Position numbers and translations under genes: made by a program
Notes under the pieces: generated by a model
What the model was told of the DNA's origin: nothing
Database searches by the model: none
What the model saw: only the letters and a program-made list of their open reading frames with translations
NCBI GenBank assembly: GCA_023265025.1
Contig: JAHFUP010000055.1
Span: forward strand, 1 to 35,718
From: Acidimicrobiia bacterium
GTDB lineage: Bacteria > Actinomycetota > Acidimicrobiia > Acidimicrobiales > AC-14
Reading direction: 5' to 3'
Length of the DNA: 35,718 bases
Shown: one piece after another, positions 29,585 through 34,681 of the stretch
Position numbering within the stretch: the first letter of the stretch is position 1
How the letters are laid out: every line of letters starts with the position of its first letter

Positions 29585-32500
29585 TTATCTGAGTCCGCTG
29601 GTCCGGTCCGGGAAGGGGGTGGGCTCCACACCGAGCTCGTCCATGCGGCCGCAGTAGCCCCGGTACATCCGCCGCGCCTCGCCGTGGCGGCCGGCGGCGC
29701 TGAGGGCGGTGACCAGGTGCAGGTGGGCCCGCTCGTCGTAAGGGTCGCGGGCGAGGACCCGCAGCAGGTACCGGGCGGCGCCGTCGTGGTCGCCGGCACC
29801 CAGGGCCAGGTCGGCAAGGGCCATGGCCACCGACACGTAGGCCGCCCGGGTCTCCTCCCGCAGGACAGTGGCCCAGTCCTCGTAGATGTCTTCCTCCAGG
29901 AACTCCCCGGCGTAGGCCGCCTCCGCGGCGCCGAGCCGTCGGGCCGCGGTCGTGGCGTCGCCGGCGGCCACGGCCAGCAGGCCGGCCTCGGCGTCGGCCA
30001 GGAAGCCCTCCACGTCGACGCTGACGTGCTCCAACCGCACCCAGGCCGCAGCCCGGTCGTTGGCGACGAACCGCTCGGCGTCGAACCGCTTCTCCGGATC
30101 GAGCACCGACCGGAGCGTGGAGAGCGTGACCGAGAGCCGGGAGCCGGCCTTCGCCGGGTCCTCGTCAGGCCACAGGAGGTCGAACAGGACGTCACGCGGC
30201 ACCGGATGGCCTCGACGGGCGATCAGCACCTTGAGCAGGTCCCGGGCCTTCCGGGACTGCCACTCGCCACCATGGATCGGCGTCCCCGACCGCTCGACGC
30301 TGAACCCGCCGAGCACCCGCACGGCGAGCGCCGGCCGGGCCGCATTCACCAGGTCGGCGTAGAGGTCGGCGGCCTCGGCGGCCAGGCCGCGGGCGCCCAG
30401 GCGCCGGAGCCGCTGCTCGGCGTCGGCCGCGGCGGCCGGCGCGTCGGGGCCGCCGAGCCGGGCCTGGGCCAGGAGGACCCTCGCCTCGGCCAGCCCGTTG
30501 CCGATCCCGGCCCAGAGCGTGGCCGCCTCGTCGAGGAGGGGGGCGGCGGCGGCCGGGTCGCCGCCGATGCGGGCCTGCAGCTCCAGGGCGTCGGCCAGCG
30601 CCGGCCGGTCGCGCCGGCTGCGGGCCACGCCGCTGGCCTCCTCGGCCCGTGACGCCGCCGCCGCCAGGTCGCCGGTGCGCAGGGCGGCCTCCGCCGCCGC
30701 CACCAGCGCCTTCGGCCGGGCGATCGAGGCGCGCGACAGCGCCTCGGCGGTCAGGCGCTCGGCCTCCGAAGTGTCAGTGTCGGCCACGATCAGGGCCAGA
30801 CCCGCCAGCGCCGGCACCAGTCCCTGGTGGTCACCCGAGGCCGATCCGATCGAGATGGCCTCCTCGTAGTGGGCCCGAGCCAGGGTCTTGTGGCCCTGCA
30901 GGCGGTGGACGGTGCCCAGGTGGGCCAGGGGGTAGGCGGCCATGCGCGACCCGAGTGCCTCGTATCCCGCCCTGGCCGCCTCCAGCTCCCCCATGGCCTC
31001 GTCGAGCCGGCCCAGGTTCAGCAGCACCTCGCCCCGGTTGGCCAGGGCGAGGGCCCGGAACAGGGCGATGCCGGCCAGGTCCGACAGTCGCACCGCCTCG
31101 TCGAGCTCGACGAGCGCCTCCGGATAGGAGCCCTCCTGCAGCAACCGCGACCCGCGGTTGTTCCGGATGCGCACGATCTGGACGTGGTCGTGGGCCGCCT
31201 CGGCGTGGGCCAGCGCCCGCTGGTAGTGGTGCATGGCCCGGCGGTCCCCGTCGATGGCGGCGACCAGCCCCAGCGACGTGTGGACGATGGCCCAGGCCCG
31301 GTCGTCGCCGGTGCGCCCGGCGATCTCCTCGGCCTCGGCGGTCAGGCGCCGGCACCGTTCGACGTCGCCGGTCAACCACGCCGCAGCCGACGCCCAGCCG
31401 AGCACCATGGCCCGCAGGGCCTCGCTGCCGGGACCGGCAAGGGCCCGCTCGTAGATGGCGACCGCCTCGTCGAACTCGCCGCGGTAGTGGTGGACGAGCG
31501 CCCCCACCAGGCCGGCGGCCATGGGCACCGGGCCGTCGCCGGCGAGGGCGGGGCTGACGATCGCCAGTGCGTCGTCGAAGTCGCCGCCGATGAGCTTGGC
31601 GCCGGCGTGGGCGTAGGCCGCCCCGTCGCTCTCGTCCGGGGCGGGACGCCCGGCCATCATCGTGGCGAGGGCCCGGTCGGTCTCGCCCCGCCCCTCCATC
31701 CAGGCCGCCGCCCGCCGGACGACGACGGCGCTGTCGCCGGCCCCGACGGCCAGCCGCGACTGGACGGCCCGGCGGAGCACCGGCGGGACGACGAACGATC
31801 CGTGCCGTTCGGCGTGGGGCACGACCCACAGGCCGTCCCGGGCCAGCACGCTCACCCGGTCCTCGGCGCCGGCACCGACCAGCTCGGCGGCGAGCGCGGT
31901 GGTGAACCGCTCCAGCGACGTGACCGCCCGCAACAGCTCGACCCTAGGGCCGGCGGTCCGGGGCAGGACCTCTTCGGCGAGGTACCCGTCGAGGGTGCTG
32001 CCCGGCTCCGCGGCCTGGTCGACCATTGCCGCCCACCGTTCACGGGGCACCTCCCGCAGCGCCTCGGCGATCATCCGGACGGCAACGGGCCAGCCGGCGG
32101 TCCGGTCGTGCAGCAGGGCGGCGACGTCGGGCGTGGCCTCCGGCCCGAGGACCGCCGTGACCAGCGCCGCCGTCTCCTCCTCCGAGAAGCGCAGGCTGGC
32201 GCCCGGCACGTCGAGGGCCATGCCCTGGGCCCGTAACCGGGCCACCGGGAACGGCGGGTCGGCCCGGGAGCTCAGTACCAGGTGGAGGTGGGCCGGGCCC
32301 TCGCGCACCAGGTCGCCGAGCAGCCGGCAGGCGGCGTCGGAGCCACCCAGCTCCCGGACATCGTCGAGGACCAGGGTGAGATCGGTGTCCAGCTGGTCGC
32401 CCAGCATGGCGACGAGCTGGTCGGCGGCCAGGGCGGCCTGGCCGGCGGAGCCGATGTCGAGGCCCTCGCCCCGCGGCGCCGGCGTGACGGACTCGGGGTC

Positions 32501-32782
32501 GAGCGCCGGCACCCGGGCCCTGGCCGCCTCCAAGAGGCCGCGGGCGAAGGTGGCGGGACCGCGGTCCTCGGGGCCGACGCCGTACCAGGCGCACCCCCGC
32601 GACCGCGCCCACCCGGCCAGCAGCGTCGTCTTGCCCAGGCCGGCGCCGGCGGTGACGAGGGTCAGGCGCCGTTCCCGGGCCTCGTCCAGGCGCGCCTCCA
32701 GCCGGGCGCGGTGCAGCGTTTCCGGGCCGTCCGCCGGCACCATCACCTTCCGGGTGCCGGCGATGCTGCGTCCCTCGGCCAC
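29585..32782 (-). CDS. MalT-like ATPase/TPR regulator with C-terminal SARP (BTAD) module
   Basis: 1065 residues. The N-terminus is a STAND-type ATPase: Walker A AGAGLGKT (45-52), Walker B LTLVLDDVREL, and VLSSRADPP (sensor), as in MalT. A long helical TPR region follows (about 390-800; e.g. AMHHYQRALAHAEAAHDHVQIVR, AVRLSDLAGIALFRALALANRGEVLLNLGRLDEA). From residue 819 an OmpR-type winged helix (LAVRVLGGFSVERSGTPI..., RKARDLLKVLIARRG) is joined to a BTAD (about 920-1055). In AfsR-like proteins the SARP part is at the N-terminus; here it is last. It is probably a ligand-switched activator. The GTG start has GGGGGAGAGGA before it. Direct repeats upstream suggest that it controls itself. Confidence 0.88.
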   Translation of the reverse strand: MAEGRSIAGTRKVMVPADGPETLHRARLEARLDEARERRLTLVTAGAGLGKTTLLAGWARSRGCAWYGVGPEDRGPATFARGLLEAARARVPALDPESVTPAPRGEGLDIGSAGQAALAADQLVAMLGDQLDTDLTLVLDDVRELGGSDAACRLLGDLVREGPAHLHLVLSSRADPPFPVARLRAQGMALDVPGASLRFSEEETAALVTAVLGPEATPDVAALLHDRTAGWPVAVRMIAEALREVPRERWAAMVDQAAEPGSTLDGYLAEEVLPRTAGPRVELLRAVTSLERFTTALAAELVGAGAEDRVSVLARDGLWVVPHAERHGSFVVPPVLRRAVQSRLAVGAGDSAVVVRRAAAWMEGRGETDRALATMMAGRPAPDESDGAAYAHAGAKLIGGDFDDALAIVSPALAGDGPVPMAAGLVGALVHHYRGEFDEAVAIYERALAGPGSEALRAMVLGWASAAAWLTGDVERCRRLTAEAEEIAGRTGDDRAWAIVHTSLGLVAAIDGDRRAMHHYQRALAHAEAAHDHVQIVRIRNNRGSRLLQEGSYPEALVELDEAVRLSDLAGIALFRALALANRGEVLLNLGRLDEAMGELEAARAGYEALGSRMAAYPLAHLGTVHRLQGHKTLARAHYEEAISIGSASGDHQGLVPALAGLALIVADTDTSEAERLTAEALSRASIARPKALVAAAEAALRTGDLAAAASRAEEASGVARSRRDRPALADALELQARIGGDPAAAAPLLDEAATLWAGIGNGLAEARVLLAQARLGGPDAPAAAADAEQRLRRLGARGLAAEAADLYADLVNAARPALAVRVLGGFSVERSGTPIHGGEWQSRKARDLLKVLIARRGHPVPRDVLFDLLWPDEDPAKAGSRLSVTLSTLRSVLDPEKRFDAERFVANDRAAAWVRLEHVSVDVEGFLADAEAGLLAVAAGDATTAARRLGAAEAAYAGEFLEEDIYEDWATVLREETRAAYVSVAMALADLALGAGDHDGAARYLLRVLARDPYDERAHLHLVTALSAAGRHGEARRMYRGYCGRMDELGVEPTPFPDRTSGLR

Positions 32783-32803
32783 TCGTCCTCTCCCCCGTCG
32801 GAG

Positions 32804-32844
32804 AGATTACGCGCCACCCGAACGTCACCCGAATCGCTCCCGAA
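32804..32844. promoter_or_regulatory. Three 11-bp-spaced direct repeats beside a -10 box (SARP operator)
   Basis: CACCCGAA at 32815-32822, again at 32826-32833, and CTCCCGAA at 32837-32844: exact 11-bp periodicity. Read on the minus strand they are TTCGGGAG, TTCGGGTG, TTCGGGTG, followed after 5 nt by TAATCT (32809-32804), a -10 box serving the SARP regulator gene. SARPs bind direct repeats at 11-bp pitch next to -10 boxes, so autoactivation is likely. No clear -10 is seen for the divergent gene. Confidence 0.72.
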
Positions 32845-32919
32845 GGGTCGCCGCGGATGCTGCGCCCGACAACAGAGCGCGGGTGCCCGACCGGGCGCCC
32901 CGGCAGAGGGAGAGCGACG

Positions 32920-33582
32920 ATGACGATGACCATGACCACCACGAGGATCGAGGACGAGGCCGGCCTGTTCGAGCCGACGCGGCCGGTGCAGGACGCCCGC
33001 CGGCGCTGGTTCCGCAGGAGCGTGGCTGGAGTGGCCGTGGCCGGCGCCCTGCTGGGCCTGGCCACGGCCATGATGGGGAACGCGAACTACTCCGACGCCT
33101 ACGTCGGAGGCCAGCTGGAGCGCCAGCGGATCACCTTCAAGGCCGCCGACGCCCCCACCGACGAGGAGCGGAAGGCCCCGTGCGTGGTCGCCAACGCCGG
33201 CAAGCCGCTGACGACCGGCAAGCAGGCCGAGTGCTACGCCAACGACTTCATCGGCACCCACATCCGGGGCATCGGGCGAGGCAAGACCTACGCCGAGTTG
33301 GAGGACGTAAAGACCGGGCTGGTCGCCCGGATCGCCACCGCCCAGGCCAACAGCGACCCTGACCTGCCCAAGCTCCAGAAGGAGCTCGCCGACCTGAACA
33401 TCCAGCGGGACACCCTGTTCAAGGCCGAGATGCTGCGCGGCGCGCTGCTGACGTCGTTCGGCTTCAGCAGCCTGGGCGAGAAGGCCGGCCAAGCCGCCAC
33501 CCTCGCCTACGGCGGCGCCGCCCTGGTGGGCGTCCTGTCGCTGGCCGGGATGGTCTACGGCCGGCGCAGCTCCAAGGCCTGA
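32920..33582 (+). CDS. Two-pass membrane protein, unknown function
   Basis: 220 residues, no family recognised. The N-terminal tail is cytoplasmic and basic before the first membrane segment (about 34-52: SVAGVAVAGALLGLATAMM). Residues ~55-190 should be outside: Cys88 and Cys105 (APCVVAN, AECYAND) could form a disulfide. A GTHIRGIGRGKTYAEL block follows, then a helix likely to form a coiled coil (LPKLQKELADLNIQRDTLF). The second membrane segment is at about 193-213, followed by GRRSSKA. The start ATG follows AGAGGGAGA. It is divergent from the SARP regulator with the 11-bp repeats between, so it is the most likely target of the regulator. The rather even coiled-coil spacing would suit an oligomer. 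No enzyme motif is visible. Confidence 0.8.
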   Translation: MTMTMTTTRIEDEAGLFEPTRPVQDARRRWFRRSVAGVAVAGALLGLATAMMGNANYSDAYVGGQLERQRITFKAADAPTDEERKAPCVVANAGKPLTTGKQAECYANDFIGTHIRGIGRGKTYAELEDVKTGLVARIATAQANSDPDLPKLQKELADLNIQRDTLFKAEMLRGALLTSFGFSSLGEKAGQAATLAYGGAALVGVLSLAGMVYGRRSSKA

Positions 33583-33593
33583 CCCCGCCGCGA

Positions 33594-33646
33594 TGGAAGT
33601 GGGCAGGATTTTCCAGTCCTGGTCCGGAAAATCCTGCCCACTTCCA
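33594..33646 (+). terminator. Perfect 21-bp inverted repeat after the membrane-protein gene
   Basis: TGGAAGTGGGCAGGATTTTC begins at 33594; the 21-bp arm ends at 33614, and its exact reverse complement runs 33626-33646. The loop AGTCCTGGTCC is 11 nt. It begins 12 nt after the stop at 33582 and ends 32 nt before the ABC ATPase gene, so it likely terminates the upstream transcript. Its length, perfection and lower GC also suit a mobile palindromic element. Confidence 0.85.
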
Positions 33647-33677
33647 AGTCGGCTCATTCCGGCGCGACCATGCTCCC

Positions 33678-34681
<1,004 letters not shown>

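Follow-up and report, generated by a model that had tools for sequence, protein, structure and literature searches.

The intergenic repeat array and its flanking genes

The window, a 35,718-nucleotide stretch of an Acidimicrobiia bacterium contig, holds two divergent genes separated by a 137-bp intergenic region (32783-32919). The gene on the minus strand (29585-32782) encodes a 1065-residue regulator, assigned by profile, sequence and fold matches, and the gene on the plus strand (32920-33582) encodes a 220-residue membrane protein. A sequence-only reading had placed a SARP-type regulator gene and a divergent gene here, with three 8-bp direct repeats at 11-bp pitch between them and a TAATCT box 5 nt away, and each of these observations held: CACCCGAA begins at 32815 and again at 32826, CTCCCGAA begins at 32837, the start-to-start distances are exactly 11, and AGATTA at 32804-32809 (TAATCT on the minus strand) lies five bases off the array. 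Written as 11-bp units on the plus strand, the array comprises unit 1 (32812-32822, CGCCACCCGAA, core 32815-32822), which is the unit common to the homologue loci described below, unit 2 (32823-32833, CGTCACCCGAA, core 32826-32833), which matches the shared core TCACCCGAA at 9/9 positions, and unit 3 (32834-32844, TCGCTCCCGAA, core 32837-32844). Direct repeats at 11-bp (or 22-bp) pitch are the mark of SARP operators, and here the pitch is exactly 11 over three units.

Such an arrangement is rare. Dinucleotide shuffling of the intergenic region, repeated 20,000 times, never produced a triple of 8-mers at pitch 11 scoring at least 22/24, and triples of that score at any pitch from 8 to 22 appeared in 10 of 20,000. 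The same genome yielded two pitch-11 triples (the window array and G000:C98:10521) in 719,610 bases, a sample that excluded low-complexity stretches and is no neutral draw because it was partly picked for contigs with BTAD genes. Control pitches of 8, 10, 13 and 14 gave 0, 1, 0 and 0 triples in these bases; pitches of 9, 12 and 15 gave 6, 4 and 9, which are probably codon-periodic. The triple at G000:C98:10521-10550 (L190), of CGCGCTGG type and the only other strong one in the 720 kb, precedes a small gene, and the same contig carries a large SARP gene.

The regulator combines a MalT-like NTPase (residues about 12-363), TPRs, a winged helix (about 843-897) and a BTAD domain (922-1056). The BTAD match is clear (66.9 bits, cut-off 22.1) and the Trans_reg_C match slightly below threshold (25.5 bits, cut-off 26.2). 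The NTPase matches PDB 8bob (E 1.5e-17). Neither full-length family describes the protein: the NCBIfam MalT profile scored 131 bits over residues 12-363 only (cut-off 537), and the AfsR equivalog 45 bits over residues 808-1056 only (cut-off 1430). An OmpR-type winged helix followed by BTAD constitutes a SARP module, and the regulator has this order; the C-terminal 254 residues were modelled with a mean pLDDT of 90.9, and along the entire module the model resembles EmbR and AfsR, with TM scores normalised by query length of 0.74-0.78; the module matches both proteins by sequence as well. Large SARPs carry the module at the N-terminus with ATPase and TPRs behind it, an order not found here, where the module occupies residues 812-1065 and the ATPase residues 12-363. 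The published account likewise describes the SARP module at the N-terminus (PMC10972967). Among the open-licence papers covered, none describes this architecture or its operator in its title or the opening of its abstract.

The membrane protein has two hydrophobic stretches (residues 34-53 and 194-213) and no Pfam or NCBIfam match; its start codon was chosen from the upstream AGGGAGAG and from homologue alignments. Neither a sigma-70 consensus promoter nor a terminator-like site was found in 32700-33700. Between this gene and a DrrA-like ABC transporter gene lies an almost perfect inverted repeat of 20 bp (GGAAGTGGGCAGGATTTTCC with its complement, 33596-33646), the core of which occurs once in the examined DNA of this genome. 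Upstream of membrane-gene homologues, DosR-like boxes exceeded plain shuffles in 2 of 20 scored rows; these two, L090 and L093, have palindromes (GGGACTTTGGGCCC and GGGACCTTCGTCCC) that resemble the DosR/DevR consensus.

Recurrence of the array beside homologous regulators

The search covered 60 relatives and then overlapping sets of genomes from the order (397), the phylum (396) and the class (395), giving 25 loci with regulator homologues 33-44% identical to the window's protein, plus one partial homologue in Kribbella (L079). A scan of these loci for TTCGG triples gave matches just beyond the regulator stop codon. Pairs of TCACCCGAA at pitch 11 scoring at least 15/18 numbered five in 26 loci (the window and the 25 homologue loci), namely two overlapping pairs in the window and single pairs in L125, L126 and L127, just past the regulator stop. 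Across the same 26 loci, twelve permuted cores gave none at 16 or above and 0-1 at 15 or above, and pitches of 8, 10, 13 and 14 gave 0-1 each. A weaker copy (14/18) lies just downstream of the regulator at L146, in a genome of the window's own order (G015). The array thus follows the regulator at 3 of 25 homologue loci, with a weaker fourth, and 21 of 25 have no clear array.

A held-out set of 35 genomes, drawn from the family already known for arrays (that of G717 and of L125-L127), supplied 12 new loci, two of them cut before the stop. Four of the 10 readable loci (L217, L218, L221 and L226) carry the array, with scores of 16, 16, 16 and 15, at the regulator stop or up to 60 bases past it; none of the remaining six scores above 12/18. 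In the regulator tree, whose backbone has weak support, the regulators with arrays are scattered, and among them L146 stands nearest to the window's protein; label counts on this tree refer to comparison with the TAAGG rows only. At L141, L144 and L145 the region 3′ of the regulator carries another repeat class, TTTAAG / CTAAGG at 11-bp pitch, in place of CACCCGAA.

All eight homologous arrays (L125, L126, L127, L146, L217, L218, L221 and L226) share one polarity and read into a small gene. Its product has 58-68 residues at seven loci and at least 75, as read, at L221, and begins M/V-x-T/S-x-I/L/V-V-R; three of these proteins were compared with Pfam and had no match. From the last CCYGAA to the small-gene start codon there are 22-24 bases at six loci, 33 at L127 and 50 at L226. 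The small gene (about 58-68 residues, M-D/E-T-F/Y-V-V-R-I/V-W) was seen 3′ of the regulator at nine of the first homologue loci searched (L125-L128, L131, L141 and L144-L146), of which L128 and L131 have the gene without a clear array, and also at L217, L218, L221 and L226. The window's regulator has neither small gene nor array downstream, and no match to the small gene better than E 0.15 was found in the examined DNA of the window's genome.

A promoter-like pattern recurs beyond the regulator gene. Of 36 regions on its 3′ side, nine contain C[GT]AAGG followed after 8-9 bases by [CG]ANNNT (two of the 36 are poor tests, L079 being incomplete and the stop position assigned to L129 uncertain), against a background of 0.0011 per 140 nt of one strand in the window's genome. 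Six of the nine matches have CCGAAGG and three CTAAGG, and each ends 6-7 bases ahead of a start codon, which suggests leaderless transcripts. The strict pattern has no match in L127 or L226 despite their arrays, and upstream of the regulator at L139 it is present without repeats.

Within the window's own genome, scans with two patterns found no second convincing copy of the array. TTCGGGNGNNNTTCGGGNG with one mismatch allowed added two places, the reversed-pattern control giving 2, and TTCGG three times followed by TANNNT matched the window without mismatch and two places with three mismatches (reversed pattern 2). Two genomes of the same genus (G001 and G002) have a membrane-gene homologue adjoining a SARP of a different class, with an N-terminal module, and upstream of it a different 11-bp array of CTACG-type units ending near TAGGTT. 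When three mismatches were allowed, the CTACG pattern matched 1, 1 and 4 times in G000, G001 and G002 and not at all in seven genomes of the same family, and its reversed control gave none in all ten. These operators were considered as sites of the window's regulator and dropped, as they belong with the other SARP class. Descent of the membrane gene together with a SARP neighbour was also set aside: the tree does not join the window protein to the G001 and G002 proteins, and a single inherited arrangement is therefore not claimed. Triple CTACG-type operators near TAGGTT lie beside other SARP genes (L182-L184 on G002:C159, L192 on G001:C35, and L181 at G000:C78:6889-6931), at least seven of them within 51 kb on G002:C159, and by our reading several face an FtsH-like gene, the membrane gene or lipoprotein-like genes.

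Promoters, polarity and the probable target

Each of the two divergent genes has a candidate -10 element. On the plus strand, the intergenic region contains one match to the pattern CCGAAGG, 8-9 bases, [CG]ANNNT, directed toward the membrane gene: CCGAAGG, nine bases and GATGCT (32840-32861), with the proposed -10 at 32856-32861 and a transcript start expected near 32868. The minus strand of the region has no match. Agreement with the pattern is partly circular, because the pattern was written after the window and homologues had been viewed; the homologous arrays and their polarity are free of this circularity. On the minus strand, TAATCT (32804-32809), the only TANNNT of the intergenic region on either strand, would serve as the -10 of the regulator gene, 21 bases ahead of its start codon with a GA-rich leader between, and its -35 region would fall inside the array. 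TAATCT is the better-looking -10 of the two. SARP operators have their 3′-most repeat about 8 bp from the -10; here CCGAAGG stands 8-9 bases from GATGCT on the plus strand, and about 8 bases are obtained on the minus strand too if the heptads are phrased to suit, the register not being fixed.

The array is very probably a SARP operator belonging to the adjacent regulator, a reading that rests on sequence comparison, and on balance we think it probable that through this operator the regulator activates the divergent membrane gene from GATGCT. Once the STAND ATPase was switched on, two or three C-terminal SARP modules would occupy neighbouring 11-bp units, each unit taking one module, and, by analogy with known SARPs, could recruit RNA polymerase to the weak -10. 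The sequence-only reading had instead proposed a self-controlled operator, with the regulator activating its own gene in a positive-feedback switch and the membrane gene as a possible second target. Its identification of a SARP operator beside this regulator agrees with the recurrence of the same unit at homologue loci, held-out ones included; self-control fared worse. None of the 25 homologous regulators has an 11-bp-pitch array upstream, the next best triple scoring 18/24 against 22/24 in the window, or 11/21 against 19/21 when a TANNNT -10 is required. The 18/24 triple, at L135, was rejected, having other letters (CACCTTTC) and no suitable -10. A lack of conserved repeats beside orthologues, which the earlier reading had named as counting against it, is seen at the regulator promoters but not when the whole locus is considered, and none of seven readable array-bearing homologues (L226 left out) has an array at the regulator promoter. 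In front of the regulator gene, L141 and L144 show, by our reading, an 11-bp pair (CTTWGKGAAGTCTTARGG) in addition to their downstream repeats; it may be an autoregulatory site.

Self-activation from TAATCT, with or without the membrane gene, is accordingly a reading we hold to be unlikely, even though TAATCT is the sole intergenic TANNNT and sits close to both array and start codon, and minus-strand heptads with 4-base spacers can end about 8 bases from it, the SARP spacing given in PMC10936776. The pairs at L141 and L144, which belong to another branch, mean that autoregulation may exist elsewhere in the family. Against self-activation, all eight homologous arrays lie 3′ of the regulator and are polarised the other way, reading into another gene. 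The switch finds no support, since the array covers the -35 region of the TAATCT promoter in opposite polarity, and for the same reason repression of the regulator, or no effect, would be likelier than activation, if autoregulation occurs to some degree. The membrane gene, to which the promoter pattern points on the plus strand alone, is more probably the activated target than the regulator itself, and so moves from possible second target to the likelier main one. It adjoins a regulator homologue at none of 26 other loci (the 25 homologue loci and the partial L079), so that the window's target is not conserved with the regulator.

The array might also be a site for some other OmpR-type protein, PhoP or another BTAD regulator, and stand beside this gene for a different reason. 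The repeat unit contains TCACC, as the PhoP repeat does, and BTAD matches number 30 in the genome. The boxes of PhoP and AfsR are likewise described as 11-bp direct repeats that can share a site (PMC10972967). Homologues of this regulator in other families nevertheless have arrays next to them, and TTCGGGNGNNNTTCGGGNG without mismatch occurs, apart from two overlapping places in the window, once in the genome, within a coding ORF (G000:C31:20708), with no other three-unit form, so we consider this explanation improbable. That the repeats have no regulatory function, arising by chance or as a small structured element, seems very improbable indeed: CCCGAAGGG can form a short hairpin and pitch-11 triples are rare rather than absent, but the shuffles, the arrays that repeat this core and pitch at homologue and held-out loci, their near-constant distance to a start codon and the lack of a terminator-like site near the window's array all argue otherwise.

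Relation to known SARP systems

Published SARP operators consist of heptads at 11-bp pitch, sometimes three (PMC10936776; PMC5930380; PMC10972967), bound by side-by-side protomers, one per repeat, at promoters whose -10 and -35 elements are both poor (PMC10936776). Three heptads are described for PimR, for which two are the minimum for binding (PMC5930380), and for several other SARPs (PMC10972967). PimR, a SARP-LAL of Streptomyces natalensis, resembles the present system in its three direct repeats of heptads with 4-base spacers at 11-bp pitch and in fusing a SARP module to a large ATP-binding portion, with one dedicated target gene; however, its module is N-terminal, its heptad is CGGCAAG and its target is an antibiotic-cluster regulator (PMC5930380), whereas the window's regulator has a C-terminal module, with TCACCCGAA as repeat unit and a membrane-protein gene as proposed target. 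AfsR and the afs box share with the window's system the SARP fold, the 11-bp direct repeats, a STAND-type ATPase with TPRs and a poor -10 of the form xAxxxT (CACTGT in the AfsR system, GATGCT here), although the domain order is reversed; R92 and T88, the base-contacting residues of AfsR (PMC10936776), align with T and V in the regulator, so a different repeat sequence is to be expected, as is found. In both sequence and fold, the winged helix and BTAD module is matched best by EmbR of mycobacteria, but EmbR carries a C-terminal FHA domain, where the window's regulator has an N-terminal MalT-like ATPase and TPRs. With MalT the regulator shares a homologous N-terminal ATPase (residues 12-363) and a C-terminal DNA-binding part; MalT ends in a LuxR-type helix-turn-helix, and the window's regulator in an OmpR-type winged helix and BTAD.

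More tentatively, MalT-type regulators with a C-terminal SARP module may form a widespread actinobacterial group with an operator of its own, (NNTCACCCGAA)n followed by CCGAAGG-8/9-[CG]ANNNT, that usually drives one small, perhaps leaderless neighbour gene. In the present genome the operator would have persisted as its target changed to a membrane protein with two TM segments, with the array placed to activate that target and shut down the regulator promoter. The SARPs described in the papers cited here bear their module N-terminally and for the most part govern antibiotic clusters; in this regulator a STAND-type ATPase carries it at the opposite end. With the present reading, the predicted direction of control shifts from self-activation to activation of a neighbour. 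Together with the conserved small gene and the membrane protein, an operator that recurs beside distant homologues would give a precise DNA target for tracing the signal that these sensors detect.
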